The notes under the pieces were generated by a model. It made no database searches, was not told the DNA's origin, and worked only from the letters and a program-made list of their open reading frames with translations. A stretch of 64,000 nt of DNA from Burkholderia sp. SRS-46 (GTDB lineage: Bacteria; Pseudomonadota; Gammaproteobacteria; Burkholderiales; Burkholderiaceae). Numbering within the stretch: position 1 is the stretch's first letter; each line of letters opens with the position of its first letter. Location of the stretch: NCBI RefSeq assembly GCF_004343775.1, contig NZ_PTXL01000001.1, positions 558,001 through 622,000 on the forward strand, read 5' to 3'. Below are positions 959 through 18,727 of this stretch, piece after piece. Made by a program: the position numbers and the translations under genes.

Positions 959-976
959 GACAGGGAATACCCGGTC
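959..976 (+). promoter_or_regulatory. Control element copy 1, proximal hairpin/dyad
   Basis: GACAGGG-AATA-CCCGGTC is an inverted repeat with one mismatch, followed by a T-rich run (977-988). It has the shape of a Rho-independent terminator for the TetR gene. However, the same sequence recurs at 11977 and 18589, each time 20-21 bases before a second palindrome, so it may be part of a joint regulatory module. Confidence 0.6.
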
Positions 977-994
977 TTTTTCTTTTTTATATTT

Positions 995-1007
995 TTGTCA
1001 TCATGAC
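995..1007 (+). promoter_or_regulatory. Control element copy 1, GTCAT-C-ATGAC palindrome and possible -35
   Basis: GTCATCATGAC (997-1007) is a perfect 5-1-5 palindrome overlapping TTGTCA (995-1000), which could serve as a -35 box. It is identical in the copies at 12016 and 18629 and is followed in all three by CTA and a related AT-rich stretch. It lies about 85 bases before the dioxygenase start. It is probably an operator; the protein that binds it is not known. Confidence 0.55.
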
Positions 1008-1091
1008 CTAACATTAGCAACATGTTCTACTAAGGGCGTGGCCGGACGCATCGGTGGCCGGGCTGCCATTTGATTAATCAGGAGATGACCG

Positions 1092-1925
1092 ATGGATGAA
1101 GCTAAACGCAAGGCATTCGCAGAGGATGGGGCGGTTCTGATCGAAGGCCTTCTCAACGAAGAACAGCTGGCGATGTGCCGCGCGGCATACGACTGGGGTA
1201 TCGAAAACCCCGGGCCGATGGCCTCCACGCTCTTGAACGGATCCGAGTCCAGATCGCACGTCGACAACGCGAATCCGTATGCAAAGGAACGGCTCGACGA
1301 ACTGGTCAGCCAACTGCCGCTCGGCAAACTGTATGCAGAACTGTGGGGCTCCACGAACGTCTGGTATTTCGCCGAGGAACTCTTTCTCAAGCGGGGAGGC
1401 AAGGGTGCGCGCTCGCTGTGGCACCAGGACACGTCGTACCTGCCGTGGCAAGGGATGCACTTCGGCAACGCGTGGATCAGCTTCGAGGCCGTCCCGAAGC
1501 GCAACGCGCTGGAGATCATCCGGGGCTCGCATCGCGGCGTGCGCCATGACGGCACCACGTTCCAGAATGCCGAGGATCCCACCGAGCCGCTGCATGGCGG
1601 CGGCGTGTGGCCGCGGATGCCGGACATCGAAGCCGAGCGTCGCGCCGACCCGAATGCGTACGACGTCATGTCGTGGGCGACGAAGCCGGGCGACGTGTTG
1701 CTGCTGCATCCCGGCGTGCTGCATGGCGGCGGGATGGTCGATCGCGACTTCCCGGACCGCAACACGCTCGTGCTGCGCTTCTTCGGCGACGACGCGACCT
1801 TCAGCCCGCTTCCGGAGAACAGCGCGTCGGGCTTCACGCCGGCGGGCATCCTGTTCGTCGAGGAGCTGATGTCGCTGAAGGCCGGCGAGCCGTTCCGCGC
1901 CCCCTGTTTCCGTCAACTCGTCTGA
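1092..1925 (+). CDS. Phytanoyl-CoA dioxygenase (PhyH) family Fe(II)/2-oxoglutarate oxygenase
   Basis: A 277-residue non-haem iron oxygenase expected to hydroxylate an organic substrate using 2-oxoglutarate and O2. The metal triad is visible: H111 and D113 in LWHQDTSYLPW and H211 in LHPGVLHGGG, with R229 in LVLRFF as the likely 2-oxoglutarate anchor. There is no signal peptide, so it is cytoplasmic. It is the first gene of operon A; GGAG lies just before the start and the RidA-fold gene follows after 18 bases. PhyH proteins act on acyl-CoAs, amines, phosphonates and ectoine, so the substrate cannot be read from the sequence. The neighbourhood favours a lipid-like or amine substrate. Confidence 0.85.
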   Translation: MDEAKRKAFAEDGAVLIEGLLNEEQLAMCRAAYDWGIENPGPMASTLLNGSESRSHVDNANPYAKERLDELVSQLPLGKLYAELWGSTNVWYFAEELFLKRGGKGARSLWHQDTSYLPWQGMHFGNAWISFEAVPKRNALEIIRGSHRGVRHDGTTFQNAEDPTEPLHGGGVWPRMPDIEAERRADPNAYDVMSWATKPGDVLLLHPGVLHGGGMVDRDFPDRNTLVLRFFGDDATFSPLPENSASGFTPAGILFVEELMSLKAGEPFRAPCFRQLV

Positions 1926-1943
1926 ACAAGGAGAATCAACGTC

Positions 1944-2357
1944 ATGGCAACGACCCACAAGCGGCAATCGATCATTCCGGCCGCGTTCCAGCCGTGGTAC
2001 GACGCCTACCATTTCGCGCCGGCCACACGCGTCGGCGACACGATCTGGGTATCCGGCCAGGTTGGGATCGGCGCGGACATGAAGCCCGGCAACGGCGTGC
2101 AGGAGCAGGCGGCGATCGCGTTCGAATCGCTGAAGATGATCCTGGCGGAGGCGGGCGCGAGTCTTGCGGACGTCGTCGAGCTGACCACCTTCCATACGGA
2201 CCTGCAGGCTGAAACCGAGACCTTCGCGGCGGTCAAGGATACGTACTTCCCGAACCGCTACCCGTCGTGGACCGCGGTCGGCGTGTCGCAGCTCGCGCTG
2301 CCGGAGTTGTGCGTCGAGATTCGCGCGGTGGCGGTAGCGGGGTCCGGCGCGGCCTGA
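1944..2357 (+). CDS. RidA/YjgF-fold protein lacking the catalytic arginine
   Basis: A 137-residue single-domain protein of the Rid (YjgF/YER057c/UK114) superfamily. Landmarks are GDTIWVSGQVG, the helix ending in LAEAGASLADVVELTTF, and the C-terminal strand VEIRAVAV. In archetypal RidA, the imine/enamine deaminase, an Arg sits in the segment aligned with YPSWTAVGV. Here that position is occupied by Ser-Trp (W109), which places the protein in an Arg-less Rid subgroup (Rid4-7 type) whose chemistry is poorly known. It is the second gene of operon A, 18 bases after the dioxygenase. Rid proteins often accompany flavin amine oxidases, and one is encoded further down this operon. Confidence 0.85.
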   Translation: MATTHKRQSIIPAAFQPWYDAYHFAPATRVGDTIWVSGQVGIGADMKPGNGVQEQAAIAFESLKMILAEAGASLADVVELTTFHTDLQAETETFAAVKDTYFPNRYPSWTAVGVSQLALPELCVEIRAVAVAGSGAA

Positions 2358-2627
2358 TCCGGCGGCCGGCGCGGCATCGCCCGACCGATTGCGTCGGCGA
2401 TGCCGTCTCCGGCCCGTAGCGGCCGGCCGCCGACCACCCGCCCAACCCGGTGCAAGCCGACGGAGCGCCTATGGAGTGAATCAGGTCTTTCCATCAGTGC
2501 CTGATGATGCAGCCAAAAAAGATCGTAATACTGATGTGTTGATGTGAAGAATGCGGGACACCGCGACAGCTTGCTTCAGGATCGACCGGCGTGGCCGGCG
2601 AATCAATGCGGAATCGGAAGGAGAACC

Positions 2628-3995
2628 ATGATGAAGAAGCACCAGATCGGAGCCGTGTCGGCCATTGCGGCGGCTTTGTGGGTTTTGACCGGGGCGGCTG
2701 TCGCGGCAGACGACCTCACGCCGGTGGGCGCCGAGCGCGGCGCGAGCAAGGACGGCTCGGTGCCGGCGTTTGCCGGCAGGCAGTCGCCGGAGCCGGGTTG
2801 GGAGTGGGGCAAGGTGCGCGCGGATTTCTGGAAGCACAAGAACGAGAAGCCGCTTTATTCGATCGACGCGGCGAACGTCGACAAGTACGCCGACAAGCTT
2901 TCGCCGGGCCAGATCGCGCTGGTCAAGCAGAAGAAGGGCTATCGGATGGACGTGTATCCGTCGCATCGCGAATGCCAGCTGCCGGACGTCGCCGAGCAGA
3001 ACTCGAAGGCGAACCTGACGGCCGCGAAACTGGATTCGGCAGGCGAGGAACTGGCGTCCGCCGTGTTGCCGGGTGTGCCGTTTCCGCAGCCGAAAAGCGG
3101 TGCGGAAGCGATCCTGAACTACGAAATGCGCTACCGGGGCGAGGGCATCGAGTGGGCGCAGACGGTGACCGCCATTTCCCCGCGCCCGGGCGGCGGCGAA
3201 TGGATCGACGCGGTCGGCCCGCAGTCGTATTACTTCCCGTCAGGCAAGCTCGGCAAGACTTCGCCGCAGGACGTGGCCCAGTTGAGCGCCGCGGTGTACT
3301 TTCAGATGAATTCGCCCGCGGCGCTGGCCGGGCAGGCGTTCGTGCAGCGTCAGTACTTCGACAAGGACTCGGAGACGTACTACTACTTCCCGGGCCAGCG
3401 GCGCGTGCGGCGCATGCCCGCCTACACGCACGATGCGCCGCTGATCGGCTTCGAGAACCAGTACCTGATCGACGAAGCGAACATGATCAACGGATCGCTC
3501 GACCGCTTCAACTGGAAGCTCGTCGGCAAGAAGGAAATGATCGTGCCTTACAACGCGTTCGGCATGTACAAATACAAGAGCAAGCTGCGCGACGTCGCGA
3601 CGCCGGACAGCATCGCCGCCGATCATCGCCGCTACGAGACGCATCGCGTCTGGGTGGTCGAGGCGACGGTCAAGCCGAGTGCGCGCCACGTGGCGTCGAA
3701 GAAGACCTTCTATCTCGACGAGGATAGCTGGCTCGCGCTGGTCGGCGAGGATTACGACGCGCAGGGCAAGCTGTGGAAGGTGCGGGAGAGCTACCCGATT
3801 CCCGTGTGGGAACTCGGCGGCACCTGCGACAGCGAGCCGCTCGCCCAGTACGACTTGATCAATGGCCGATACGTGTTCGATGCGTCGTCGATCGGTCAGG
3901 GCAAGGACATTCGCTATTACGAGAAGGCCAGCGATCCGCGCTTCAAGCCCGACTTCTTCACGGCGGAATCGTTGCGATCGGTCAGCGAACGCTGA
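2628..3995 (+). CDS. DUF1329 family outer-membrane/periplasmic protein
   Basis: A secreted protein of about 455 residues. A signal peptide is clear (positive start MMKKH, hydrophobic core AAALWVLTGAA, cleavage near AVA-AD). The ATG at 2628 has GAAGGAG upstream; an in-frame ATG at 2544 is less likely. DUF1329 proteins resemble LolB/LolA-like lipid carriers and usually occur with a DUF1302 outer-membrane protein and an RND permease, as here. That association suggests handling of a hydrophobic substrate in the envelope. About 270 bases separate it from the Rid gene; nothing recognisable was seen there, so an internal promoter is possible. Function is inferred from the family and neighbours. Confidence 0.85.
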   Translation: MMKKHQIGAVSAIAAALWVLTGAAVAADDLTPVGAERGASKDGSVPAFAGRQSPEPGWEWGKVRADFWKHKNEKPLYSIDAANVDKYADKLSPGQIALVKQKKGYRMDVYPSHRECQLPDVAEQNSKANLTAAKLDSAGEELASAVLPGVPFPQPKSGAEAILNYEMRYRGEGIEWAQTVTAISPRPGGGEWIDAVGPQSYYFPSGKLGKTSPQDVAQLSAAVYFQMNSPAALAGQAFVQRQYFDKDSETYYYFPGQRRVRRMPAYTHDAPLIGFENQYLIDEANMINGSLDRFNWKLVGKKEMIVPYNAFGMYKYKSKLRDVATPDSIAADHRRYETHRVWVVEATVKPSARHVASKKTFYLDEDSWLALVGEDYDAQGKLWKVRESYPIPVWELGGTCDSEPLAQYDLINGRYVFDASSIGQGKDIRYYEKASDPRFKPDFFTAESLRSVSER

Positions 3996-4073
3996 AGATC
4001 GTCGAATAAATAAATACGACAGCCGACGCGCGCCGACGCGCCGTCGGCATCCAGGTTTGGGTGAGGTGGGGCG

Positions 4074-5918
4074 ATGAAAGCGAAGATGATCGTTAGGCAT
4101 ACTACGGTGTCGATTGCTGTTCTGGGTGCGGCCACGTCGAGCGCATACGGCTACGATTTCACGACCGGGAACGGCGAGATCCAGGGTTCGTGGGTCACCA
4201 ATCTGACGGCGGGCGCGGGGATCCGGACCAAGAATCCGAGCTGCTCGCTGACCGGCGACCCGAACGCCCATGGCTGCGGGGCGGCGGCCAACACCAATCA
4301 ATGGGGGTTCGCCGACAACGGCGACCTGAACTACCGCAAGGGGCAGCCGTTCAGCACGTACATCAGCGCGACCAGCGAGCTGCTGCTGAAGATGCCGAGC
4401 CAGGGGCTGAAGTTCATGGTCCGCGGCACGGGCATGTATGACTTCATGGCGAAGAACACCGATCGCACGCCGCTGTCGAGCACCGCGGCCGCGCAGGTGG
4501 TCTACAACGCGCAAGTGCTCGACCTGTGGGCGCAGAAGGATTTCACGATCGACGGGCGCAACGCGCACGTGCGGCTCGGCAACCAGGTGATCAACTGGGG
4601 CGAGAGCATGTTCGCGCAAGGCGGCATCAACTCGACCAACTCGCTCGACACGCAGAAGCTGCTGATTCCGGGCTCGCAGTTGAAGCAGGCGCTGCTGCCT
4701 GCGCCGATGCTGAGCGTCGCCGCCGATCTGTCGCATGGGTTCAGCACCGAGGCGTACTACCAGTTCCAGTGGAACGGCAACCGCTACCCGCCGGTCGGCT
4801 CGTTCTGGTCGATCTCGAACAGCTTCGGCCGGGGCGCGGAACCGTTCACGTTCAACACGAGCAACCTCAACGTGACTGGCCCGAGCGCGGGCACGATCGC
4901 GAATGCGATCGGCGGGCCGGGCTCGGCGGGCAACCAGGGCACGCTCGACGGGATCCGGAACGGGCTCGTGAACGGCACCTACGCCGGCGCGCCGTTCAAC
5001 GACATCGGCATTCCGGTCTCGACCAAATTGCCGTCGAAGTACCGGCCGCAGTTCGGCGTGAAGTTCAACTATTCGCCGCGCTCGTTCGATGCGAACTTCG
5101 CGTTCTACTACGAGAACTACACCGACAAGTCGCCGGTGCTCGGGTTGCTGGCCAACGGGACGACGCAATGGTCGTATCTCGGCAACCGGCAGCTGTTCGG
5201 CGTTAGCGCGAACTTCGGGGTCGGCCCGTGGGCGATCGGCACCGAACTGTCGTACCGGCCGCGCGACGCGGTCGCGCTGTCGAGCTGCTTCGGCGCGGGC
5301 GGCCCGCTCGACATGAACACGAACGGCGTAACGGGTGTCGACTGCCAGCAGTGGGCCGACAAGAAGAAGTTCCAGCTCGATATCAACGGGCTGCTGGCGC
5401 TGACGCGCAGCGAGTATCCGTTTCTCAAGCTGATCGGCGCCGATACCGCGAACCTGACGTGGGAGCTGACGTGGATTCATTACCCGGGTCTGAATTCCAA
5501 CGGCGTCACGCGCACGATCAATGGGCAGACAGTCACGCAGGTGCCGGCGGCCGGCTATCTGCCGTGGCTGAACAACAACTCGGGGCTCGGCTATCCGATC
5601 GTCGCGGGGCAGGGCACGGCGAGCTCGGTCGGCGCGACCGTCGACTTCAACTGGACCTATGACGGCACGCTGATTCACGGCTGGCAGGTAACGCCGGGCG
5701 TGACGTTCTCGGACGGGCTCTACGGCTACACGCCGACGCTCACCGGGAACTACATGCAGGGCGCGAAATCGCTGAACGTCTATGTGCTGTTCAACCAGAA
5801 TCCGCCGAACTGGCAGGCGGGCATCAACTTCACGGCGTTCTTCGGCGGGCACCAGACGGTCGGGCAGCCATATGCGGATCGCAATTTCGTCGGGCTGTTC
5901 GTCACCCGGAATTTCTGA
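4074..5918 (+). CDS. DUF1302 family outer-membrane protein
   Basis: A 614-residue predicted beta-barrel. It has a signal peptide (MKAKMIVRHTTVSIAVLGA, cleavage near SAYG), alternating aromatic/polar strands and a C-terminal phenylalanine (LFVTRNF), the signature for outer-membrane insertion. Family members sit beside DUF1329 and RND genes in catabolic clusters for poorly soluble compounds and are thought to form the outer-membrane part of an uptake or export route. GAGGTGGGG lies upstream of the ATG. It is followed by the RND gene after 17 bases. The substrate is unknown. Confidence 0.85.
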   Translation: MKAKMIVRHTTVSIAVLGAATSSAYGYDFTTGNGEIQGSWVTNLTAGAGIRTKNPSCSLTGDPNAHGCGAAANTNQWGFADNGDLNYRKGQPFSTYISATSELLLKMPSQGLKFMVRGTGMYDFMAKNTDRTPLSSTAAAQVVYNAQVLDLWAQKDFTIDGRNAHVRLGNQVINWGESMFAQGGINSTNSLDTQKLLIPGSQLKQALLPAPMLSVAADLSHGFSTEAYYQFQWNGNRYPPVGSFWSISNSFGRGAEPFTFNTSNLNVTGPSAGTIANAIGGPGSAGNQGTLDGIRNGLVNGTYAGAPFNDIGIPVSTKLPSKYRPQFGVKFNYSPRSFDANFAFYYENYTDKSPVLGLLANGTTQWSYLGNRQLFGVSANFGVGPWAIGTELSYRPRDAVALSSCFGAGGPLDMNTNGVTGVDCQQWADKKKFQLDINGLLALTRSEYPFLKLIGADTANLTWELTWIHYPGLNSNGVTRTINGQTVTQVPAAGYLPWLNNNSGLGYPIVAGQGTASSVGATVDFNWTYDGTLIHGWQVTPGVTFSDGLYGYTPTLTGNYMQGAKSLNVYVLFNQNPPNWQAGINFTAFFGGHQTVGQPYADRNFVGLFVTRNF

Positions 5919-5935
5919 ATCGAAGGGGTCATGTC

Positions 5936-8296
5936 GTGCTTAATCGTTTAGTCAGCCGTCTGGAAGGGCTCTTCTTCGGTCATCGACGGATCGTGCTCGC
6001 GGCGATCGGCCTGTTCACTGTCGTGATGGCCGTATTCGCCGTGCAGCTGCGCATGGATGCCGGCTTCGAGAAGCAGATGCCGATCGGCCACGAGTACATC
6101 CGCACCTTCCAGCAATACCGGAACGATCTGCTCGGTGCGAACCGGATCACCGTCGTCGTGCGTGCGAAGCAGGGTTCGATCTGGTCGCCCGAGGGTTTGA
6201 CGCGGTTGTACAAGGTGACGCAGGCGGTCACCTATCTGCCGAACGTCGACCGGATCGGGGTGCGCTCGTTATGGACACCGAACGCCTTCGTCAACGAGAT
6301 CACCGACGAAGGGTTTCGCGCCGAGCCGATCATCTCGGGCACGATCACGCCCGACCAGTTGACGCCGGCGATCGTCGCGGAGATTCGTCATGCGACGACG
6401 CAGGGCGGCTACGTCGGCACGCTCGTGTCGCACGGCGAGGACAGCGCGATGATCACGGCCGAGCTGAACGAGCGCGATCGCGCGGGCAAGGTGCTCGATT
6501 ACGTGTCGTTCAATCATCTGCTGGAAGAGAAGATCCGCAAGCCGTTCGAGGACGCCGGCTACGAGATCCAGATCATCGGCTTCGCGAAGCAGATCGGCGA
6601 CATTGCGGATGGCGCGACCGCCGTGCTCGGATTCTGTGGCGTTGCGCTGCTGCTGACCGCGCTGGCCGTCTACTGGTATTGCCATTCGCTGCGCTTCACG
6701 GTGTTGCTGATCGCCTGCTCGCTGACGTCTTTGGTCTGGCAATTCGGCACACTGAAGCTGCTCGGTTTCGGGCTCGATCCGCTTGCGGTGCTGGTGCCGT
6801 TCCTGGTGTTCGCGATCGGTGTGTCGCATGGGGTGCAGCAGGTGAACTTCATCGTGCGTGAAATCTCGCACGGTCACAGCTCGTATGACGCAGCACGTCA
6901 CAGCTTCAGCGGCTTGCTGATCCCGGGCGTGCTGGCGCTGATCACTGCGTTCGTGTCGTTCATCACGCTGCTGCTGATTCCGATCCCGATGGTGCGCGAG
7001 CTGGCGATCACGGCGTCGCTCGGTGTCGCGTACAAGATCGTGACGAACCTGATTCTGCTGCCGGTCGCCGCCTCCTGCTTCAACTTCACGAAGGCGTATG
7101 CGGACAGCTCGCTGAAGCGAGCGGAGCGGCGGTCGGCGTGGCTGCGCGGATTGGCGCGCATCGCGCAACCGAAGTATGCCGGCGCAACCGTCGCGCTGAC
7201 GCTCGCGGTGTTCGCACTCGCGGCATGGCAAAGCCGCGATCGCGTGATCGGCACGTTGCAGCCGGGCGCGCCGGAGCTGCGCGCGGACGCGCGCTTCAAC
7301 TGCGACGCGACGTCGATCGCGGGCAACTACGACATGGGCCTCGACTGGCTGACGGTCGCGATCGAGTCGAAGGGCAACGCATGCGACAACCCTGCGGTCG
7401 GCCTGTACGAAGAAGACTTCACGGCCGCGATGCGCACCGAGCCGGGCGTGGTGTCGGCGCAGTCGTATTCGTCGCTGCTGCGCGCATACAACCAGGGCTA
7501 CAACGAAGGCTATCCGAAGATGAACGTGGTGCCGATCGCTGCCGAGAACTACGGAGCGGTGTCGGTGGACGTCGGGCGCATCAAGGGCTTCATGAAGGCC
7601 GATTGCAGCATGACGGCCGTGCACCTGTTCCTCACCGATCACAAGGCGACGACGATCAACCGCATCCTCGAAGACGTGAAGCAATACCGCGCGTCGCATC
7701 CGTTCCCGGGCATCACCGTGAGACTCGCGGCGGGCAACGCGGGCGTGCTCGCGGCGACGAACGACGAGGTGGAGAAGAGCGAGCTGCCGATGATGCTGTA
7801 CGTGTACGCGGCGATCCTGGTCCTCGTGTTCCTTGCCTACCGCGACTGGCGCGCGATGCTCGCGTGCTGCGTACCGCTGTCGGTGGCGACCTTCATCGGC
7901 TACTGGTTCATGAAGGAATTGCAGATCGGCCTGACGGTGGCGACGCTGCCGGTGATGGTTCTCGCAGTGGGGATCGGCGTCGACTACGCGTTCTACATCT
8001 ACAACCGGTTGCAGGTGCACCTCGCGGGTGGCCAGACCATCGTGAAGGCGGTGCAGCACGCGATGCTCGAAGTGGGCGTGGCGACGATCTTCACGGCGAT
8101 CACGCTGGCGATCGGCGTCGCGACCTGGAGCTTCTCGGCGCTGAAGTTCCAGGCCGACATGGGCAAGCTGCTCGCGTTCATGTTCCTCGTGAACCTGTTG
8201 ATGGCGATGACGGCGCTGCCCGCGCTCGCGTCCGTTCTCGAGCGCTGGTTCCCGCGTCGCACGCCGGCGCGTGCACCGGGCCTGTTCAGTCACTGA
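5936..8296 (+). CDS. MMPL/RND family transporter permease
   Basis: A 786-residue inner-membrane permease with the duplicated RND layout: TM1 near residues 17-36, a large periplasmic loop, five more helices (about 220-390), a second loop, and a final helix set (about 620-770). The conserved GVDYAFYIYNRL segment after helix 8 is typical. It starts at a GTG preceded by GAAGGGG; a nearby ATG is out of frame. With DUF1329 and DUF1302 it likely forms a trans-envelope machine for a hydrophobic molecule. It ends in PGLFSH, and a similar tail (SVLFSH) ends the next small ORF, a sign of local duplication. Direction of transport is unknown. Confidence 0.88.
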   Translation: MLNRLVSRLEGLFFGHRRIVLAAIGLFTVVMAVFAVQLRMDAGFEKQMPIGHEYIRTFQQYRNDLLGANRITVVVRAKQGSIWSPEGLTRLYKVTQAVTYLPNVDRIGVRSLWTPNAFVNEITDEGFRAEPIISGTITPDQLTPAIVAEIRHATTQGGYVGTLVSHGEDSAMITAELNERDRAGKVLDYVSFNHLLEEKIRKPFEDAGYEIQIIGFAKQIGDIADGATAVLGFCGVALLLTALAVYWYCHSLRFTVLLIACSLTSLVWQFGTLKLLGFGLDPLAVLVPFLVFAIGVSHGVQQVNFIVREISHGHSSYDAARHSFSGLLIPGVLALITAFVSFITLLLIPIPMVRELAITASLGVAYKIVTNLILLPVAASCFNFTKAYADSSLKRAERRSAWLRGLARIAQPKYAGATVALTLAVFALAAWQSRDRVIGTLQPGAPELRADARFNCDATSIAGNYDMGLDWLTVAIESKGNACDNPAVGLYEEDFTAAMRTEPGVVSAQSYSSLLRAYNQGYNEGYPKMNVVPIAAENYGAVSVDVGRIKGFMKADCSMTAVHLFLTDHKATTINRILEDVKQYRASHPFPGITVRLAAGNAGVLAATNDEVEKSELPMMLYVYAAILVLVFLAYRDWRAMLACCVPLSVATFIGYWFMKELQIGLTVATLPVMVLAVGIGVDYAFYIYNRLQVHLAGGQTIVKAVQHAMLEVGVATIFTAITLAIGVATWSFSALKFQADMGKLLAFMFLVNLLMAMTALPALASVLERWFPRRTPARAPGLFSH

Positions 8297-8327
8297 CACC
8301 TACGAACATCCTGACGGAGATTCAGTC

Positions 8328-8612
8328 ATGGTCAAGACGCTGGTTACCGGCGGTGCACTTTGCCTCGCCGCGGCGGTCCTCGCTCGATCCCATGGCGCTG
8401 TCGCGGACTGGACCACGCCGGCTCACACGATCGCGGCCGATGCACAACGCGTCGCGGTGCGCATCGGCACCGTCGACGAACCGGGCGTCGCTCCGTCGTC
8501 GAACGACGGCAACGCCGAGCGGCAGGCGGCAGCCATGCAGGTTGCGAACAAGCCGCCGACCGTTGCACTCGGCGTAGCGCAGTCGGGCTGGTCGGTTTTG
8601 TTCAGCCACTGA
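8328..8612 (+). CDS. Small chimeric exported protein; likely tandem-duplication remnant
   Basis: A 94-residue ORF with a signal-like N-terminus. Its first half (MVKTLVTGGALCLAAA, then ADWTTPAH and RIGTVDEPGV) aligns with the start of the next gene (MIKTLVACTALCAAAT, ADWAALPAH, RIVAVGEHGV). Its last residues (VLFSH) resemble the end of the upstream permease (GLFSH). The DNA around both stop codons and both starts is also alike. This order, propeller-gene head then permease tail, is what a tandem duplication spanning the permease/propeller-gene junction leaves behind. It may be translated but probably has no function of its own. An alternative start at 8271 overlaps the permease gene. Confidence 0.5.
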   Translation: MVKTLVTGGALCLAAAVLARSHGAVADWTTPAHTIAADAQRVAVRIGTVDEPGVAPSSNDGNAERQAAAMQVANKPPTVALGVAQSGWSVLFSH

Positions 8613-8643
8613 CGTCAGCGCACACCACTACAGAGACTCAACC

Positions 8644-11177: not shown

Positions 11178-11858
11178 ATGAAACGGGCAATGATCATCGG
11201 CGCCGTGCTGGCGCTGGCGGGCCTCGCGGGCGCGGGCGCGCTGTACGGGCGGGACATCCTCGACGGGATGCGTTTCGAGAAGGCGATGAGCCAGATCGGC
11301 GAAGCGGAGCAGGCGAACGCCGGCCCGTGGCCGCAGGCGCAGGAGGTCTGCTTCAGTTGTCACGGCACGCGCGGCCAGTCGCTCAATTCCTGGTATCCGT
11401 CGCTGTCCGGCCAGCCTGAAGCGTATCTCGTGACGCAGTTGCGCGCGTTCGCGTCGGACCAGCGCCACAGCGCGTACATGGGGCCGCTCGCAAAGGATCT
11501 CGACGACGCGCACATCAAGGCGCTGGCCGCGTATTTCGCGCGGCAGACCCCGACTCGCAACGAGGACGTACCGCCCGATGCGACGCTCGAGAAACGCGGC
11601 CTGGCCCTGGTCGGGGCGCGAAGCTGCCAGGCGTGCCACGGCGCGACGCTGATGGGCAAGGACCAGACGCCGCGTCTGCTGGGCCAGGGCGAGGCCTATC
11701 TCGCGAACCAGCTCGCCGCGTTCAAGGCGGGCGAGCGCCGCGACCCGAGCGGCGCGATGAATGGCATCGCGGCGACGCTGTCGGACGACGACGTTCGAGC
11801 CCTGGCTCACTACCTGGCCAGTGTCTCGCCCGGGCGCGCGCAGATCGCGGCCAAGTAG
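11178..11858 (+). CDS. Di-haem cytochrome c (c4-like)
   Basis: A 226-residue exported or membrane-anchored c-type cytochrome. An N-terminal hydrophobic helix (AMIIGAVLALAGLAGAGALYG) is followed by two haem-binding motifs, CFSCH and CQACH, each in a domain of about 100 residues, as in cytochrome c4/c553 tandem forms. Each domain has a Met that could act as the sixth ligand (YMGPL and AMNGI regions). It starts one base after the amine oxidase stop and is the natural electron acceptor of that enzyme. It is the last gene of operon A; control element copy 2 follows 120 bases later. Confidence 0.9.
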   Translation: MKRAMIIGAVLALAGLAGAGALYGRDILDGMRFEKAMSQIGEAEQANAGPWPQAQEVCFSCHGTRGQSLNSWYPSLSGQPEAYLVTQLRAFASDQRHSAYMGPLAKDLDDAHIKALAAYFARQTPTRNEDVPPDATLEKRGLALVGARSCQACHGATLMGKDQTPRLLGQGEAYLANQLAAFKAGERRDPSGAMNGIAATLSDDDVRALAHYLASVSPGRAQIAAK

Positions 11859-11976: not shown

Positions 11977-11994
11977 GACAGGGAATACCCTGTC
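11977..11994 (+). promoter_or_regulatory. Control element copy 2, proximal hairpin/dyad
   Basis: GACAGGG-AATA-CCCTGTC is a perfect 7-bp stem with a 4-base loop followed by TTTTTCTT. By shape it can terminate operon A. It is the best-formed of the three copies and sits 21 bases before the GTCATCATGAC palindrome. Confidence 0.62.
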
Positions 11995-12013
11995 TTTTTC
12001 TTCGTTTGTTATT

Positions 12014-12026
12014 TTGTCATCATGAC
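12014..12026 (+). promoter_or_regulatory. Control element copy 2, GTCAT-C-ATGAC palindrome and possible -35
   Basis: GTCATCATGAC (12016-12026) overlaps TTGTCA (12014-12019). Downstream, CTAACTTTGGTAGTGTGTTC strongly resembles the same region of copies 1 and 3. It is about 205 bases before the saccharopine-dehydrogenase-like gene; apart from this element nothing is recognised in the 370-base gap 11859-12230. Confidence 0.55.
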
Positions 12027-12230
12027 CTAACTTTGGTAGTGTGTTCTATAAATAAGGGCAGGCAGAAAGGGTTCGCGACCCGGGCGGTATCCGGCAGTCA
12101 CGACAGAGGAAGCAGCTTCATACCGCGGTGCGCACCGCACCGCACCGGCTCCGGCCGCCGGCGCACGCCGCGATGTCGATTCACGTCGAATCGACCCGAC
12201 TATCAACTCATCACGTTTCAGGAGACAAGC

Positions 12231-13361
12231 ATGGCCAAGCACCCCGTCGTCGTCTATGGCGCAAGCGGTTACACCGGCATGTTGATCATGGACTGGCTGA
12301 TCGACCAGAACATCCCGTTCACGGCGGTCGCGCGCAATGCGGGCCGCACGAAGGACTTGATGGCGCAGCGCGTCGTGCGCCTCGAATCGGCGGAATACGA
12401 GATCATCGAGGCGGAACACAACGTCGACGCGCTCGTCAACGCGTTCCGCGGCGCGAAGGTGGTGTGCAACACCGTCGGGCCGTTCTTCAATTTCGGCCTC
12501 GCGGCTGTCGAAGCGGCGCTCAAGGCGGGCTGCCACTACCTCGACACGACCGGCGAGCAAGGCTACATCCGCATGGCGCGCGACCAGTTCGGCGAGCTGT
12601 ATCGCCAGGCCGGGCTGCTGCTGTCGCCGTCGAACGCGTACATGTACACGTACGCCGAAATCGCCGCGGAACTGGCGCTCGAGACGCCGGGCATCGACGC
12701 GCTCGAGACCGCGACGCTCACGCGCGGCCCGCGCGGGTCGGCTGGCGTGAGTGTCGGCTCGACCGCGACGATCTTCGAAGGCTATCGTCAGGAATCCTGC
12801 TATCTGTGGGAAAAGAAGCTCACCCCGCATGCGGCGAGCGCGTCGTTCACCGTCGCGTCGCCGGACTTCATGCAGCCGGTGTTCTGCCTGCCGTGGGGCG
12901 GCACGTCGCTGCCGGTCTACTTCGAGCACGATCCGCGCGTGCGCAGCTGCATCTCGTGCGTGGGCTTCTACGACAACAACGTGATGCAGATGGTGCACCA
13001 GTTCGGCCAGAAATGGGACGCCGAATACAAGCACCTGCCGGTCGAGCAGCAGGAAGCGATCCTGAAGCAGGTGGTCGCGTCGACCACGCCGTCGATGCCG
13101 CCGCGTGAGCGCACGACGGTCCAGCGCAGCGTCGATTTCGCGATCGGCCGCGGCCAGTTGAACGCGGTGCGCGCGACGGTGCACGGCATCACGCCGTACA
13201 TCGCGACCGGCGCGATCCAGACGGCGGGCGTGATCAAGCTGCTCGACGGCGAGACCGCGAAGGTGGGCTTCGCATCCGGCTCGAAGGCGTTCGGCCATCG
13301 CTACCTGCTCGGCTTCCTCGAGCAGCGCGGGCTCGCGCGCGCGAACGTCGCGCAGCTTTGA
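12231..13361 (+). CDS. Saccharopine dehydrogenase-like NAD(P)-dependent reductase
   Basis: A 376-residue cytoplasmic protein. The N-terminus is a Rossmann nucleotide-binding domain with VVYGASGYTGMLIMDWL, as in saccharopine dehydrogenase-like and trans-acting enoyl-reductase-like proteins, followed by VVCNTVGPFFNFG and HYLDTTGEQ, both conserved in that family. The rest is less conserved. The preferred ATG has CAGGAGA upstream. It is the first gene of operon B behind control element copy 2. The family includes reductases of lipid and amino-acid intermediates; the specific reaction here is unknown. Confidence 0.8.
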   Translation: MAKHPVVVYGASGYTGMLIMDWLIDQNIPFTAVARNAGRTKDLMAQRVVRLESAEYEIIEAEHNVDALVNAFRGAKVVCNTVGPFFNFGLAAVEAALKAGCHYLDTTGEQGYIRMARDQFGELYRQAGLLLSPSNAYMYTYAEIAAELALETPGIDALETATLTRGPRGSAGVSVGSTATIFEGYRQESCYLWEKKLTPHAASASFTVASPDFMQPVFCLPWGGTSLPVYFEHDPRVRSCISCVGFYDNNVMQMVHQFGQKWDAEYKHLPVEQQEAILKQVVASTTPSMPPRERTTVQRSVDFAIGRGQLNAVRATVHGITPYIATGAIQTAGVIKLLDGETAKVGFASGSKAFGHRYLLGFLEQRGLARANVAQL

Positions 13362-13400
13362 GCGCAGCCGGGCCAGTGCAGACTCAGAGGACTACGCGAA

Positions 13401-14954
13401 ATGGCAATCATTGATTTCTTCGACCGCGGGTGGCGCATCAACCCGCACGGCATCGCCTATATCCAGGACGAACGCAGCCATTCGTTCCAGGAGATCGGCG
13501 AGCTGTCCTGCCGCATCGCCAACGGGCTGCTCGCCGAAGGCTTCGCGAAGGAAACGAAGGCGGCGGTGTGGGCGGACAACGACGTGATCGGGTGGGCTTG
13601 TGCGCTCGGGATGTGGCGCGCGGGGCTGACGTACATCCCGGTCAACGGGCGCAACACGCCGTCGGAGAACCAGTACGTGCTCGACGCGTTCGACTGCGAG
13701 GCGCTGTTCTTCTCGCAGGCGTTCGCGGCGGTGATCGATGCACTGCGCCCGAGCCTGCCGAAAGTGAAGCGCTGGGTCTGCATCGATGCGGAGCTGCCGT
13801 GGGCGCCGTCGCTCGCGACCTGGAGCGCGAGCCAGCCGGCGACGATGCCGCGCGTCGACTACGACATGGACGACGTCGTGACGCTGTCCGCGACGGGCGG
13901 CACGACCGGCGCGCCGAAGGGCGTGATGAACACGCACCGCGCGTTCCAGACGTACTTCGCGCAGTTCATGATCGCGTTCCCGTACGGCACGCAGCGCCCG
14001 GTGAATCTCGCCGCCGCGCCGATGACGCATACCGCGGGGATGCTGTCGCTGCCGTGCACCGCGCGCGGCGGCACGGTGGTCGTGCTGACGAAGCCCGATC
14101 CCGCGCTGCTGCTCGGCGCGATCATGAAGCAGCGGGTCACGGAGTTCTTCCTGCCGCCGACGGTGATCTATCGGCTGCTCGACATTCCCGGCATCGACAA
14201 GCTGGATTTCTCGTCGCTCAAGTATTTCCTGTACGGCGCGGCGCCGATGTCGGTGGAGAAGCTCAAGCGCGCGATCGAGGTGTTCGGCCCGGTGATGGCC
14301 GGCGGCTACGGGCAGACCGAAGCCGCGGCGTCGATTGCCAACATGGCGCCGGCCGAGCATTTCGTCGACGGCAGGATCGCGTCCGACGAGCGGCTGTCGT
14401 CGGTCGGCCGCCCGAACCCGCTGATCCGCGTCGAGATCATGAACGACCAGGGCGAAGCGCTGCCGCAAGGCGAGACGGGCGAGATCTGCGTGCGCGGCGA
14501 CCTGATCATGAAGGGCTACTACAACGCGCCGGACAAGACCGCCGAGACCATCGTCGACGGCTGGCTGCATACGGGCGACATCGGACATCTCGACGCCGAG
14601 GGCTACCTGCACATCACCGACCGCAAGAAGGACATGATCATCAGCGGTGGCTTCAACGTGTACCCGAGCGAAGTCGAGCAGGTGATCTGGTCGCACCCGG
14701 CGGTGCAGGACTGCGCGGTGATCGGCGTGCCCGACGACAAGTGGGGCGAAGCCGTGAAGGCGGTGGTGGAGCTCAACGCGGGCCACACCGTGAGCGCCGA
14801 CGAGCTGGTCGCGCTGTGCAAGGAGAAGCTCGGCTCGGTCAAGGCGCCGAAGAGCGTGGACTTCGTCGCCACGCTGCCGCGCAGCACGGTCGGCAAGGTG
14901 TTGAAGAAGGACCTGCGCGAGCAGTACTGGCAGGGTCGGCAACGCAAGATCTGA
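13401..14954 (+). CDS. AMP-forming acyl-CoA synthetase/ligase
   Basis: A 517-residue member of the ANL superfamily that activates a carboxylic acid with ATP to its CoA thioester. Visible motifs are the phosphate-binding loop SATGGTTGAPKGVMNTH, GGYGQTEAA, the hinge region GYLHITDRKKDMIISGGFN, and the C-terminal catalytic lysine region GKVLKKDLRE. It starts 39 bases after the reductase and is followed by the thiolase after 11 bases. It should feed substrate into the acyl-CoA dehydrogenase and thiolase steps encoded nearby. Whether the acid is aliphatic, aromatic or a side chain cannot be told. Confidence 0.9.
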   Translation: MAIIDFFDRGWRINPHGIAYIQDERSHSFQEIGELSCRIANGLLAEGFAKETKAAVWADNDVIGWACALGMWRAGLTYIPVNGRNTPSENQYVLDAFDCEALFFSQAFAAVIDALRPSLPKVKRWVCIDAELPWAPSLATWSASQPATMPRVDYDMDDVVTLSATGGTTGAPKGVMNTHRAFQTYFAQFMIAFPYGTQRPVNLAAAPMTHTAGMLSLPCTARGGTVVVLTKPDPALLLGAIMKQRVTEFFLPPTVIYRLLDIPGIDKLDFSSLKYFLYGAAPMSVEKLKRAIEVFGPVMAGGYGQTEAAASIANMAPAEHFVDGRIASDERLSSVGRPNPLIRVEIMNDQGEALPQGETGEICVRGDLIMKGYYNAPDKTAETIVDGWLHTGDIGHLDAEGYLHITDRKKDMIISGGFNVYPSEVEQVIWSHPAVQDCAVIGVPDDKWGEAVKAVVELNAGHTVSADELVALCKEKLGSVKAPKSVDFVATLPRSTVGKVLKKDLREQYWQGRQRKI

Positions 14955-14965
14955 GTCGAGGCACC

Positions 14966-16207
14966 ATGAGCCATATCTACATCGCCGGTATCGCGATGAC
15001 CGTGTTCGGTCGTCACTTCGAGCGCAGCATCGAGGATCTCGCGGGCGAGGCGCTGCAAGGCGCGCTGCGCGACGCCGGTTGCCAGGCCGACGCGATCGGC
15101 GCGGCGTTCTATTCAGGCATCACGAACGGCGCGCTGCAAGGGCAGTTGTCGATCCCGGGCCAGGTCGTGTTCAGCAAGATCGGCGTCGAAGGCGTGCCGG
15201 TCTTCAACGTCGAAAATGCGTGCGCGTCCGGCAGCACCGCGGTGCATCTGGCGGTTCAGCATCTGCGGGCCGGCGCGTGCGATGTCGCGCTCGCGCTCGG
15301 CGCGGAGAAGATGAACGTCGCCGACAAGGCGAAGTCGTTCGCGCTGTTCGAGGCGGGGTGGGACGTGTCCCGCGTCGACGAGAACTTCGCGACGCTCGCG
15401 AAGATGGGCGATGGCATCGAGCCGCCGCCCGGTTCGGAATCGGACCGGCCGTACAGCCGCTTCATGAAGATCTATGCGGCGATGTGCCGGTATCACATGC
15501 GGAACTACGGCACGACGCAGCGCCAGATCGCGGCCGTGTCGGCGAAGAATCATCAGCATTCGGTGCACAACCCGCATTCGCAGTTCCGCCAGCCGTTCAC
15601 GATCGACGAGGTGCTCGCCGCCGCGCCGATCACGTATCCGATCACGCTGCCGATGTGCGCGCCGCTGTCGGACGGCGCGGCGGCCGCGATCCTCTGTACC
15701 GAGGAAGGCCTGCGGCGCATCGGCGCCGACCGCAGCCGGTGCATCCGGGTCGCGGCGAGCGTGATTCGCAGCTTCACGCACCGGCGCATCGACGAGCCGG
15801 AGAAGGGCATCGGCCGCCTCGCGGCGCTGCAGGCATACGAGCAGGCCGGTGTGGGGCCGCAGGACATGGACGTCGCTGAAGTCCATGACGCATCCGCGAT
15901 GGGCGAAATCATCCAGACCGAAAACCTCGGCCTCGTCGCGTTCGGCGAGGGCGGCCCGGCGGCCGAGCGCGGCGACTTCACGCTCGGCGGGCGCATTCCG
16001 GTCAATCCTTCCGGCGGGCTTGAATCCAAGGGGCATCCGCTTGGCGCGACGGGGATCGGTCAGCTCTACGAACTGGTCACGCAACTGCGCGGGGAAGCCG
16101 GCGCGCGGCAGGTGCAGGGCGCGCGTCATGCGATCCAGGAGAACGGCGGCGGGCTGCAGGGCGTCGAGGAAGCGGCGCTGGCGATCCATATTCTGAGCAA
16201 GGACTGA
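14966..16207 (+). CDS. Thiolase family protein (SCP2/lipid-transfer type)
   Basis: A 413-residue thiolase. The nucleophilic cysteine is C86 in NVENACASGSTAVH and the catalytic His is H357 in GLESKGHPLGATG. The C-terminal Cys-containing loop of classical degradative thiolases is replaced by QENGGGLQG, as in SCP2-type thiolases acting on branched or side-chain acyl-CoAs. It lies 11 bases after the ligase and 11 bases before the flavin oxidase, so it is part of operon B. It probably cleaves a 3-oxoacyl-CoA formed by this cluster. A polyketide-type or aldolase-partner role is a less likely alternative. Confidence 0.87.
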   Translation: MSHIYIAGIAMTVFGRHFERSIEDLAGEALQGALRDAGCQADAIGAAFYSGITNGALQGQLSIPGQVVFSKIGVEGVPVFNVENACASGSTAVHLAVQHLRAGACDVALALGAEKMNVADKAKSFALFEAGWDVSRVDENFATLAKMGDGIEPPPGSESDRPYSRFMKIYAAMCRYHMRNYGTTQRQIAAVSAKNHQHSVHNPHSQFRQPFTIDEVLAAAPITYPITLPMCAPLSDGAAAAILCTEEGLRRIGADRSRCIRVAASVIRSFTHRRIDEPEKGIGRLAALQAYEQAGVGPQDMDVAEVHDASAMGEIIQTENLGLVAFGEGGPAAERGDFTLGGRIPVNPSGGLESKGHPLGATGIGQLYELVTQLRGEAGARQVQGARHAIQENGGGLQGVEEAALAIHILSKD

Positions 16208-16218
16208 CGGAGGCACGC

Positions 16219-17652
16219 ATGGGCAACGGGACGAAAGTCGGGCAACGCGGGCCGGCGGCGCAAGCGGGCGCGTCCGCGCCGCTTGCGCGCCGGGACGAGG
16301 CAATCCGGGTCGGCGCCGCGCTCGAGCGGTATCGGCCGCTCGGCGGCTGGCTGGAGCGGCCGGACGATCCGCGGCCGCCGCTCGAAGGCGACGTGGACGC
16401 GGACGTGATCGTCGTCGGCGCCGGCTTCGCCGGCCTGTCCACCGCGCTGGAACTGGCCGCGCGCGGCGCGAAAGTTGTGGTGATCGAGCGCGAGTTCGCC
16501 GGCTTCGGCGCGAGTGGGCGCAACGCGGGCTATCTCGCCGGCGGCCAGGGGCTCGAATACGAGCTGTTCATGAAACGCGTGGGGCATGCGCAGGCGCAGC
16601 AGATCGTCGGCTTCTACGACGAAGGCGTCGCCTATGTCGAACGAAAGCTGGCCGAACACGGGATCGACTGCGACTACAACGCATCGGGGATCATCCGCGC
16701 GGGCGTGCATCCGTCGCAGGAAAAGAAGCTGCGCGAGAGCATGCAGACCGGCATCGAACTCGGCTCCCCGGCGCACTTCCTCGACCACGCCGCGATGCGC
16801 GCGCGCGGGATTCCGCCGGCGTTCCTGTTCGGCTGCTACGTGCCGAGCGGCGGCACGCTGGACCCCGGCAAGTACGTGACGGGGTTGCGGCGCGCGGCGC
16901 TGCGCGCGGGCGTGAAGCTCTACGAGAACACGCCGCTGGAGTCGTATGAAGCGGGGCCGATCGTCAAGGCGCGCACCGCGCGGGGCAGCGCGAGCGCGCC
17001 GTTCCTGGTGCTCGCGACCAACGCCTATACGCCGCAGCTCGGCCTGCTCGGCGACAAGGTGGTGCCGCTGCGGGTGTCGGCGATCGAGACCGAGCCGCTG
17101 TCCCCCGCGCAACTGGCGTCGCTGGGCTGGCCGCGCCGCGAAGGGATCGTGACCTCGCACTTCACGATGGAAAGCCATCGCCTGACGGCCCGCAACACGC
17201 TCGTGCTGACGACCAAGCGGCTCCACTACGTCTATGGCGCGCAGACGCCGAACGTGCCGGACCACACCGCGTACCGTGAACTGGTGCGCGCGCTGCATGA
17301 CCGCTTCCCCACGTTGCGCGACGTCGCGGTCCGGTCATGCTGGAGCGGCTACATCTCGTTTGCGTTCGACGCGCTGCCGGTGGTCGGCGAGGCCGGTGAA
17401 CACCGGAACGTGCTGTACACGGCCGGTTGCTCCGGGCACGGCGTCGGTACGCAGTCGCTGATGGGGCAGTTGCTGGCGGAGCGGATTCGCGGCAACGAGC
17501 CTGCGCTGCTCGCGGCGCTGCGCCACAAGACGCCGTCGACGCCGCCTGAACCGCTGCGCTGGTGCGCGGTGAATACGGCGCTGGGCGCCGCGAACCTGCT
17601 CGACGAGCGGGTGAACCGCAAGGCGCGCGCGGCCGCGGCGCGAAGGGGGTAG
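16219..17652 (+). CDS. FAD-dependent oxidoreductase, DadA/PuuB-like
   Basis: A 477-residue flavoprotein of the D-amino-acid-oxidase superfamily. The FAD motif is VIVVGAGFAGLSTALEL, followed by EFAGFGASGRNAGYLAGGQG, which resembles gamma-glutamylputrescine oxidase. The C-terminal region SFDALPVVGE-like (here FAFDALPVVGEAG) and YTAGCSGHGVGTQSLMG complete the fold. No export signal is seen, so it is cytoplasmic. It is the last gene of operon B. With the periplasmic amine oxidase it gives the cluster two distinct amine-oxidising flavoenzymes, strengthening the idea of a nitrogen-bearing substrate. The exact substrate is unknown. Confidence 0.84.
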   Translation: MGNGTKVGQRGPAAQAGASAPLARRDEAIRVGAALERYRPLGGWLERPDDPRPPLEGDVDADVIVVGAGFAGLSTALELAARGAKVVVIEREFAGFGASGRNAGYLAGGQGLEYELFMKRVGHAQAQQIVGFYDEGVAYVERKLAEHGIDCDYNASGIIRAGVHPSQEKKLRESMQTGIELGSPAHFLDHAAMRARGIPPAFLFGCYVPSGGTLDPGKYVTGLRRAALRAGVKLYENTPLESYEAGPIVKARTARGSASAPFLVLATNAYTPQLGLLGDKVVPLRVSAIETEPLSPAQLASLGWPRREGIVTSHFTMESHRLTARNTLVLTTKRLHYVYGAQTPNVPDHTAYRELVRALHDRFPTLRDVAVRSCWSGYISFAFDALPVVGEAGEHRNVLYTAGCSGHGVGTQSLMGQLLAERIRGNEPALLAALRHKTPSTPPEPLRWCAVNTALGAANLLDERVNRKARAAAARRG

Positions 17653-17782: not shown

Positions 17783-17811
17783 TGGAAAACGAGACGGGCA
17801 TCGGTTATAGT
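17783..17811 (+). promoter_or_regulatory. Candidate promoter of the second TetR gene
   Basis: TGGAAA (17783-17788) and TATAGT (17806-17811) are 17 bases apart and resemble sigma-70 -35 and -10 boxes. A small hairpin, CCCCGC-GAAAT-GCGGGG (17820-17836), follows before the TetR start. No experimental support is available. Confidence 0.4.
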
Positions 17812-17883
17812 CATCTGCGCCCCGCGAAATGCGGGGGCGATCATATTGACGAGGCCGAGACGCCCATTTGACGACGGAATGCG

Positions 17884-18558
17884 ATGACAGTGCCTATTGA
17901 GCAGCGCAGCGGCAGGAAACGGCGCACATCGAGCGCAGCACCCGCAAGCAACGGTACCGACGGCCTGCGCGCCCAAGGCTTGCGCACGCGAAACACCATC
18001 GTTCAGGTGGCCGAGAAGCTCCTGCTCGACGGCGGCACGCTGGAATTCTCGCAGCGCGCGGTCGCCGTTGCCGCGGGGATCAGCGTCAGCAACCTCCAGT
18101 ACTATTTTCCGACGCGATCGGCCGTATTGCGGGCGGTCATTGCGCCGGTCATCGAATCGTATCTGAACGAGCTGAAGCAGGCGATCGACAACGACACGTC
18201 GCCCCATGCGACGCTGGATGCGCTCATGAAGCGCTCGCTTCGTGATGCGAAAGATATCAAGTACACGACGCTGTTCCGCCACTTCCTGTCGTTTGCGGCG
18301 ACCGATCTCGAGTGCGCCAAGCTGTACGAGGAATGGTACGACACGCTGTCGCGCGATCTCGCCAAGCTGATCCGCGCCGTCAATCCGGCATGCAGCGTGG
18401 CCGAAAGCCGGCAAATCGCGTCGCTGCTCATTGCGCTGGCCGACGGGCTGGCGCTGCAATACGGCACGGGGCGCGACGTGCAGCCGCCCGAGGCGCGCTA
18501 CCTGGAGACCGTTCATTACCTCGTGTACGGAAAGCCGCCGAGCGCCAAGCGCAAATAG
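17884..18558 (+). CDS. TetR family transcriptional regulator
   Basis: A 224-residue regulator. After a basic N-terminal tail, the TetR helix-turn-helix runs from RNTIVQVAEKLLLDGG through AVAVAAGISVSNLQYYFP. The remainder is the ligand-binding region. It sits between operons B and C, and control element copy 3 starts 30 bases after its stop, so it is a prime candidate to bind the palindrome shared by operons A, B and C. It has its own likely promoter upstream. The inducing ligand may be a CoA thioester, as for many TetR proteins of fatty-acid catabolism, but that is inference. Confidence 0.88.
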   Translation: MTVPIEQRSGRKRRTSSAAPASNGTDGLRAQGLRTRNTIVQVAEKLLLDGGTLEFSQRAVAVAAGISVSNLQYYFPTRSAVLRAVIAPVIESYLNELKQAIDNDTSPHATLDALMKRSLRDAKDIKYTTLFRHFLSFAATDLECAKLYEEWYDTLSRDLAKLIRAVNPACSVAESRQIASLLIALADGLALQYGTGRDVQPPEARYLETVHYLVYGKPPSAKRK

Positions 18559-18588
18559 CGATCGATCGCGTTGGCGGAATCCGGAAGA

Positions 18589-18607
18589 GACAGGGGAATA
18601 CCCTGTC
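18589..18607 (+). promoter_or_regulatory. Control element copy 3, proximal hairpin/dyad
   Basis: GACAGGG-GAATA-CCCTGTC has a perfect 7-bp stem and 5-base loop followed by eight T residues, so it likely ends transcription of the TetR gene. It lies 21 bases before the palindrome at 18629, the same spacing as in copy 2. Confidence 0.62.
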
Positions 18608-18626
18608 TTTTTTTTCATTCCGGTGT

Positions 18627-18639
18627 TTGTCATCATGAC
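18627..18639 (+). promoter_or_regulatory. Control element copy 3, GTCAT-C-ATGAC palindrome and possible -35
   Basis: GTCATCATGAC (18629-18639) overlaps TTGTCA (18627-18632) and is followed by CTATGTTTGGTAGTAAATAC, matching copies 1 and 2. It is about 90 bases before the first acyl-CoA dehydrogenase of operon C. Confidence 0.55.
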
Positions 18640-18727
18640 CTATGTTTGGTAGTAAATACTAGTAAATGGATGGCCGGGTGCATCCGCAATCCGGTCGGCA
18701 TGCTTCCAGGAAAGGAGGAGAACCGAA

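Follow-up and report, generated by a model that had tools for sequence, protein, structure and literature searches.

The window analysed here, 64,000 nucleotides of Burkholderia sp. SRS-46 (contig NZ_PTXL01000001.1, positions 558,001 to 622,000), carries three presumed operons on the forward strand, each preceded by a copy of a two-part DNA element, which consists of a hairpin with a T-rich run followed by a conserved stretch that we interpret as promoter and operator. Presumed operon 1 (1092-11858) encodes PhyH, RidA, DUF1329 and DUF1302 proteins, a resistance-nodulation-division (RND) transporter, a YCF48/PSII_BNR protein (8644-9609), a flavin amine oxidase and a cytochrome c. Presumed operon 2 (12231-17652) encodes a DUF5938/saccharopine-dehydrogenase-like protein, an acyl-CoA ligase, a thiolase (14966-16207) and a DAO-type oxidase, and is followed on the same strand by a TetR-family gene which we refer to as TetRB (17884-18558, + strand). 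Presumed operon 3 opens with acyl-CoA dehydrogenase (ACAD) and the beta and alpha subunits of the electron transfer flavoprotein (ETF) (18728-21834), then histidine phosphatase, APH and SDR genes. A second TetR-family gene, TetRA (197-886, + strand), lies before the first copy. The initial annotation had placed three copies of the element here, each before the first gene of an operon, with TetR genes upstream of copies 1 and 3, and direct reading of the sequence bears out all of this, the three first genes being PhyH (1092), DUF5938 (12231) and ACAD (18728).

The three copies start at 959, 11977 and 18589. Their hairpins, GACAGGGAATACCCGGTC (959-976, with one mismatch), GACAGGGAATACCCTGTC (11977-11994) and GACAGGGGAATACCCTGTC (18589-18607), are of the form GACAGGG-AATA-CCCGGTC, GACAGGG-AATA-CCCTGTC and GACAGGG-GAATA-CCCTGTC, respectively, and each is followed by a T-rich run, so that the first part of the element spans 959-990, 11977-12002 and 18589-18615 on the + strand. 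After 20, 21 and 21 bases comes GTCATCATGAC (997-1007, 12016-12026 and 18629-18639), a perfect palindrome with a central C, and 3' of it CTAACATTAGCAA, CTAACTTTGGTAG and CTATGTTTGGTAG in copies 1, 2 and 3. The palindrome lies within a longer 17-bp unit, TTTGTCATCATGACCTA, which is identical in the three copies (994-1010, 12013-12029 and 18626-18642) and is followed by a second, diverged unit: ATTAGCAACATGTTCTA in copy 1 (1013-1029, 11/17 bases identical to unit 1), TTTGGTAGTGTGTTCTA in copy 2 (12032-12048, 10/17) and TTTGGTAGTAAATACTA in copy 3 (18645-18661, 9/17), all on the + strand. In copy 1, unit 1 also holds a putative -35 hexamer, TTGTCA (995-1000), and unit 2 spans the putative -10 and start. 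What was first described as a separate CTAACTTTGGTAG-like stretch runs across the junction of the repeats, from the last bases of unit 1 into the first bases of unit 2.

The string GTCATCATGACCTA occurs exactly three times in the 8.6-Mb genome, always inside the window, with one further place at one mismatch (contig C23, away from this gene set), and the same string read backwards matched nowhere in the genome. The palindrome GTCATCATGAC is not rare by itself, with 25 matches at up to two mismatches in the window against 16.5 (standard deviation, s.d., 4.7) in shuffled sequence. A model of the operator, R1, which covers 40 positions by sequence only and does not include the hairpin, found five matches in the genome, none of them away from this gene set and its second copy. 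Besides the three in the window there is a fourth, decayed copy 2.8 kb upstream of it (C11:555199), 5' of a second amine oxidase-cytochrome c pair; its hairpin is perfect and its second repeat is decayed, the second CTA reading CAA. Another copy, at C16:102386, lacks a hairpin and stands 5' of the DUF5938 gene in the genome's second cluster. That cluster (C16:85.8-112 kb) is a paralogous copy of much of the first, with a DUF5938 gene 85% identical, its own TetRB (55-56%) and, separating that gene from ETF beta, a decayed copy of the module.

Across 65 copies, picked by a regular expression demanding part of these same bases and numbered from the A of ACCTA, invariant or near-invariant positions recur 19 bases apart: T at -11 and +8, A at -6 and +13, T at -2 and +17, and CTA at +2 to +4 and +21 to +23. 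When weighted columns were scored, the top direct repeat (17 bp, pitch 19) reached 4.66 over 62 sequences, against 1.87 (s.d. 0.41, maximum 3.61 in 2000) for shuffled columns, and 4.05 against 1.51 (s.d. 0.34, maximum 3.03 in 1000) over 45 sequences that included hairpin-less copies. Both sets had been picked by a regular expression or matrix favouring ACCTA...TTnG...CTA, and the test was therefore rerun on 38 Burkholderiaceae sequences chosen by the hairpin alone, excluding ten loci from outside the family; here the repeat scored 4.64 against 2.00 (s.d. 0.39, maximum 3.70), a score reached by 0/1000 shuffles. The inverted repeat scored 1.64 against 1.38 (s.d. 0.28) over the 62 sequences, and its score was matched by 117/1000 column shuffles in the 38-sequence set and by 120/1000 in the 45-sequence set, or about 12%. 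Amongst inverted repeats the palindrome ranks first in two of the three sets, whilst in the 45-sequence set the best centre lies half a base off. Taken as the recognition unit, as first proposed, the palindrome thus gives way to the direct repeat, and the conserved element is, on this pattern of conservation, a predicted operator in which a 17-bp unit is directly repeated at a pitch of 19 bp, TTTGTCATnATGACCTA / TTTGGTATnnTGTTCTA, and not the palindrome GTCATCATGAC. Many Burkholderia copies have a unit 1 that is palindromic as well, and because of this a dimer may sit best on that unit.

The repeats coincide with a putative promoter. In a scan of all -35 positions with spacers of 15-19 bases, scored by hexamer weights, the best mean fit over the 45 copies was a -35 of TTGTCA (-11 to -6), a spacer of 17 and a -10 at +12 to +17; this TTGTCA-17-TATnnT register averaged 5.14 against 2.94 for the next and was the best in 18/45 copies. 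It agrees with the promoter overlapping TTGTCA that had been suggested at the outset, and a promoter further downstream (-35 at or near GACCTA, -10 CTAnnA) scored lower. The best register would place unit 1 over the -35 and unit 2 over the -10 and start, an arrangement that would suit a repressor.

The hairpins sit 72, 118 and 30 bases 3' of the stop codon of a same-strand gene in copies 1, 2 and 3, and in all three a stable, G+C-rich stem is followed by a T run, with predicted folds of -9.0, -13.7 and -16.7 kcal/mol (z -2.26, -3.74 and -4.83). A consensus terminator scanner did not call copies 1 and 3, yet these fold at the first and last of those energies. Amongst 24 distinct hairpins, 144 of 167 cells were standard pairs against 138.0 (s.d. 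2.0) after shuffling, a count reached by 30/5000 shuffles, and changes on both sides of a pair occurred in seven cells against 2.5 (s.d. 1.3), reached by 9/5000, so that the structure is kept by paired changes. These counts come from a hand-set register and chosen hairpins uncorrected for relatedness, a set from which copies without a hairpin and two Caballeronia hairpins that had lost a base are excluded. The hairpin is most likely an intrinsic terminator, and one separable from the operator, because about 10 of 44 operators lack it.

Those 44 operators score at least 25 with a promoter-only matrix in 13 cluster regions; a reversed-sequence control of 23 sources (520,755 bases) gave one site above 25 and the next at 20.0. 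The hairpin is missing at about 10/44 by eye and at 13/44 by program; four of the latter 13 have a hairpin after all, mismatched or long in the loop, whilst the program credited P. fungorum 16386 with a spurious hairpin. By gene orientation, hairpin-less operators make up 5/11 of those with a divergent neighbour (C. lacunae 16047 and 22978, P. fungorum 33854, C. neocaledonicus 5495 and Cupriavidus sp. KK10 5280), 5/31 of those with a same-strand neighbour (three between RidA and DUF1329, one of them partly, and two before the second amine oxidase) and 0/2 of those without a known upstream gene. Six divergent sites retain the hairpin, two of them imperfectly. For C. lacunae 16268 and 22978 and P. 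fungorum 33652, inspection rather than the program label decided the orientation. The C16 copy in the SRS-46 genome, which is outside the 44, is also hairpin-less and lies 3' of a same-strand gene.

To follow the element beyond this genome we used both of its parts. A scan of genome contigs for the hairpin alone (GGGNATACCCTGTCTTTTT) returned 48 loci, 38 in Burkholderiaceae (Burkholderia, Paraburkholderia, Caballeronia, Cupriavidus, Pandoraea and Ralstonia, sometimes several loci per genome) and 10 elsewhere. All 38 Burkholderiaceae loci had the operator (lowest score 43.8) and a homologous cluster gene downstream, which was ACAD in 19, the amine oxidase in 12, PhyH in five, ETF beta in one and DUF5938 in one; the other ten had neither operator (highest score -2.1) nor cluster gene. 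Given 38/38 with operator and gene against ten with neither, the hairpin sequence and the promoter part usually go together in Burkholderiaceae, as a unit marking one gene set. The initial annotation had held that the element defines a regulon; with all 38 family loci at this gene set, it is, as judged from its distribution, the mark of a genuine regulon there. In 299 Burkholderiaceae genomes, drawn evenly, R1 matched 28 at E <=0.001, and the cluster is scattered over 7 of the 25 genera sampled. Stricter patterns found fewer, with the strict composite pattern in 16/299 family genomes and exact GTCATCATGACCTA in 5/101 relatives. A search for DUF5938 in 300 genomes of the order matched the SRS-46 genome alone and so yielded no distant outgroups.

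A linked TetR protein had been predicted as the common regulator, without a choice between the two, and the comparison retains TetRB and makes TetRA unlikely. TetRB has both expected domains above cutoff (TetR_N, 25.9 bits, cutoff 24; TetR_C_6, 31.9 bits, cutoff 27). At E <=1e-35 it matches 28/299 family genomes, the identical 28 that R1 matches at its own threshold, whilst neither is found in the remaining 271 at these thresholds; TetRB thus accompanies the operator in 28/28 genomes. TetRA relatives occur in 122/299 genomes, 100 of them amongst the 271 that have no motif, and six of the 28 genomes with the motif have none; the protein is weakly similar to efflux repressors, with NCBIfam scores below cutoffs. 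TetRB was found in 13/13 cluster regions, TetRA in five and the LysR gene in five. Since TetRB matches had served to retrieve most of the regions, 13/13 is partly by choice, which the 299-genome result is not. The LysR-like gene (25863-26852, recognised by motif) is rejected as the regulator on its presence in 5/13 regions only; it lies downstream of the cluster, as does an AraC-type gene (HTH_18, 31064-32077). When open reading frames were clustered, TetRB was the only regulator amongst families common to at least 7/13 regions; ten unlabelled shared families that we scanned had no Pfam match and resemble antisense frames, and a further shared family, scanned separately, is that of the thiolase.

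The operator lies 66-131 bases 3' of the TetRB gene in 14 of 16 cases, the two lacking a normal downstream operator being P. oxyphila C298 (none found) and the SRS-46 C16 copy (a decayed remnant). Residues 36-85 of TetRB average 0.895 identity to the majority over 16 relatives against 0.678 beyond, which is weak evidence, such conservation being common amongst TetR proteins. In its recognition stretch, AGISVSNLQYYFPTR, TetRB resembles RutR (AGVSKTNLLYYFPSK), and the TGACC/GGTCA core seems to resemble the RutR site, the consensus of which found no confirmation in the PMC articles searched. On these grounds TetRB is the likely regulator of all copies, and probably a repressor.

We therefore propose an operon-boundary module of roughly 70 bases, in which a terminator is followed by a promoter under two direct repeats and through which TetRB represses the PhyH, DUF5938 and ACAD operons together, and we regard this as probable overall. 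The hairpin and T run, whose structure and position are directly visible, would end transcription of the preceding operon. A sigma-70-type promoter (-35 TTGTCA, 17-base spacer, -10 TATnnT) would begin 17-18 bases past the stem, by its best fit, and the two 17-bp repeats, at 19-bp pitch, would cover it from the -35 to the start, as their conservation indicates. TetRB would bind both units, probably with two dimers next to each other, and would repress the three operons until a pathway substrate or CoA intermediate releases it. Repeated serially on one strand, terminator, promoter and operon would make separate yet co-regulated units of one catabolic pathway.

Several observations weigh against this proposal. 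Co-occurrence with the operator is expected for any core gene of the cluster and would fit an unlinked regulator of the same distribution equally well, and in the window the TetRB gene itself has no operator directly 5'. TetR operators are usually palindromic; the operator here does not have that form, and its units are asymmetric, with a T that hardly or never varies at positions 2 and 16 (counted in 41/45 operators, the four with a shifted register excluded). At the three window loci a more stringent consensus scanner detects no promoter, and because of this an activator role for the regulator is possible. On the side of the terminator, hairpin loss tracks gene orientation weakly in the divergent and same-strand counts above, and the hairpin, even in its loop, is conserved beyond what termination alone would seem to demand; this high identity is only partly accounted for, with module duplication, selection of copies by that sequence or an extra function as candidate reasons.

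Of the competing explanations, the one that best withstands the data takes the direct repeats as the site of an activator encoded elsewhere, of AraC/XylS-like type, with TetRB having another role. Sites of such activators typically consist of two direct repeats near the -35, the units here are asymmetric and have a pair of conserved boxes spaced by about 10 bp, the promoter is weak, and an AraC-type gene is present in the window, with another annotated near the Caballeronia NK8 cluster. We consider it unlikely, since no AraC family is common to at least 7/13 cluster regions and close relatives of the NK8 protein occur in 2/13 (Caballeronia and Pandoraea); moreover the pitch is 19 rather than the 21 of AraC/XylS sites, and the units extend beyond the putative -10, which fits a repressor. 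A regular-expression search for AraC proteins flagged none in the cluster regions, but carries little weight as it also missed the AraC gene of the window itself.

The initial annotation read hairpin and palindrome as one composite signal whose parts work together, with GTCATCATGAC as the TetR operator. The near-constant spacing (43-45 bases from the hairpin GGG to ACCTA in 65 copies) favours this, as do the clarity of the palindrome in many Burkholderia copies, with a freely variable central base, and its standing as the best inverted repeat in most sets. It nonetheless appears quite improbable to us, given how often column shuffles reach the palindrome's score, the loss of its arms in Paraburkholderia ACAD copies, the operators without a hairpin and the paired changes in the stem; an obligatory joint action finds no support in the last two. 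We would give no more credence to the suggestion that the hairpin DNA, as an inverted repeat of 18-19 bp, is instead a second protein-binding site, to which TetRB or some other regulator would bind. Over six genera GGGAATACCC and the T run hardly vary, partly due to the selection of copies by that sequence, but the loop varies in length (AATA, GAATA, GTCATAG), which would shift the half-sites, the stem changes in pairs, and such a site would be absent at hairpin-less operators. Near-identical copies within one cluster might also recall a dispersed repeat of the repetitive extragenic palindromic (REP) type lying here by chance, which is scarcely credible with 5/5 model matches in 8.6 Mb at the gene set or its second copy and 38/38 family loci at the gene set, and the searches across genomes did not find the spread over unrelated loci that had been named as the outcome against a regulon.

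A second element bears on how TetRB may read its operator. By regular expression, three or four direct repeats at about 22-bp pitch, starting TAGGTC, the reverse complement of the GACCTA in unit 1, were found at six places in the fetched loci: L101:5195-5290 (in the SRS-46 genome, C16, approximately 110.2-110.3 kb), L026:830, L047:5950, L084:15991, L088:14225 and L133:36115. The unit is roughly TAGGTCRnnnnnnCGTAnTnT, and CAGTGTTTTCCCT precedes it in most of the six. At four of six the element lies beside a divergent gene for a tandem TetR protein, TetRC, namely in Caballeronia (L026/L081, and L133), Paraburkholderia LEh10 (L047) and the SRS-46 C16 cluster (L101); in C. lacunae (L088) the gene is 12 kb from the element, and in P. 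oxyphila (L084) it was not in the fetched stretch. TetRC, encoded at L133:34447-35865 and L101:5548-7011 and also in L081, L047 and L088, has 472-487 residues with two TetR_N matches and a TetR_C_6, its halves being 32% identical to each other and each about 25% identical to TetRB. We tentatively suggest, as a possibility rather short of an even chance, that this TetR lineage reads head-to-tail operators with a TAGGTC/GACCTA core, TetRB two 17-bp units at 19-bp pitch and TetRC three to four units at 22-bp pitch. Were this so, the tandem protein would be a natural single-chain form adapted to direct repeats, breaking the palindrome rule for TetR dimers, and two regulatory layers would control one amine-catabolic cluster.

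Compared with known systems, the hairpin is like other intrinsic terminators in its G+C-rich stem, loop of 4-5 bases, T run and position shortly after the upstream stop, but differs in being near-identical across most copies and several genera, at a near-fixed distance from the next promoter. TetRB is like TetR catabolic repressors (BetI-type TetR_C_6 proteins, with RutR amongst the nearest in PDB) in having both domains and in being linked to and co-occurring with its operator, whereas the operator here is a direct repeat at 19-bp pitch and common to several operons of one cluster. An unusual feature of the system, as predicted, is thus a TetR-linked operator built of direct repeats. Several protein units on one operator (an octamer) are described for EthR (in a study cited in PMC5895659) and non-palindromic TetR sites for GdmRIII and AtrA (PMC5500506), but the parts of these accounts available to us describe no two 17-bp direct repeats across a core promoter at several operons. 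In open-access PMC articles we found no description of this gene set, and in two of the articles that matched the motif strings the match was a gyrB primer (PMC8076470) and a phaC1 primer (PMC4636370), respectively.

The amine oxidase of operon 1 is nearest in PDB to monoamine, putrescine and cyclohexylamine oxidases. Operon 1 also holds all four parts reported for AmeABCD of Castellaniella defragrans, which exports apolar monoterpenes (DUF1302, DUF1329, a YCF48-like periplasmic protein and an RND transporter; PMC6394551), but joins them to amine oxidase, RidA and PhyH genes; a role in transport is suspected for related P. putida DUF1302/DUF1329 proteins (PMC10866462). Because it combines an amine oxidase, AmeABCD-like transport, RidA, acyl-CoA ligase, thiolase, ACAD and ETF, the cluster suggests, by its gene content, the oxidative breakdown of a hydrophobic amine. 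Just upstream of the cluster (L102:2476-9066) are a gene for an AcrB-type RND permease and a two-domain response regulator, where genes were named by eye. In Cupriavidus sp. KK10 (L006:34477-38672), homologues of DAO, RidA and PhyH, 55-66% identical, lie on the same plasmid about 9 kb past the first cluster.

A precise, searchable operator with a named candidate regulator means that membership of this regulon can be read from sequence. If the link between TetRB and the direct repeats holds, it would add an operator geometry to which palindrome-based searches for TetR sites are blind, and the neighbouring tandem TetR would allow a test of how direct repeats are read.

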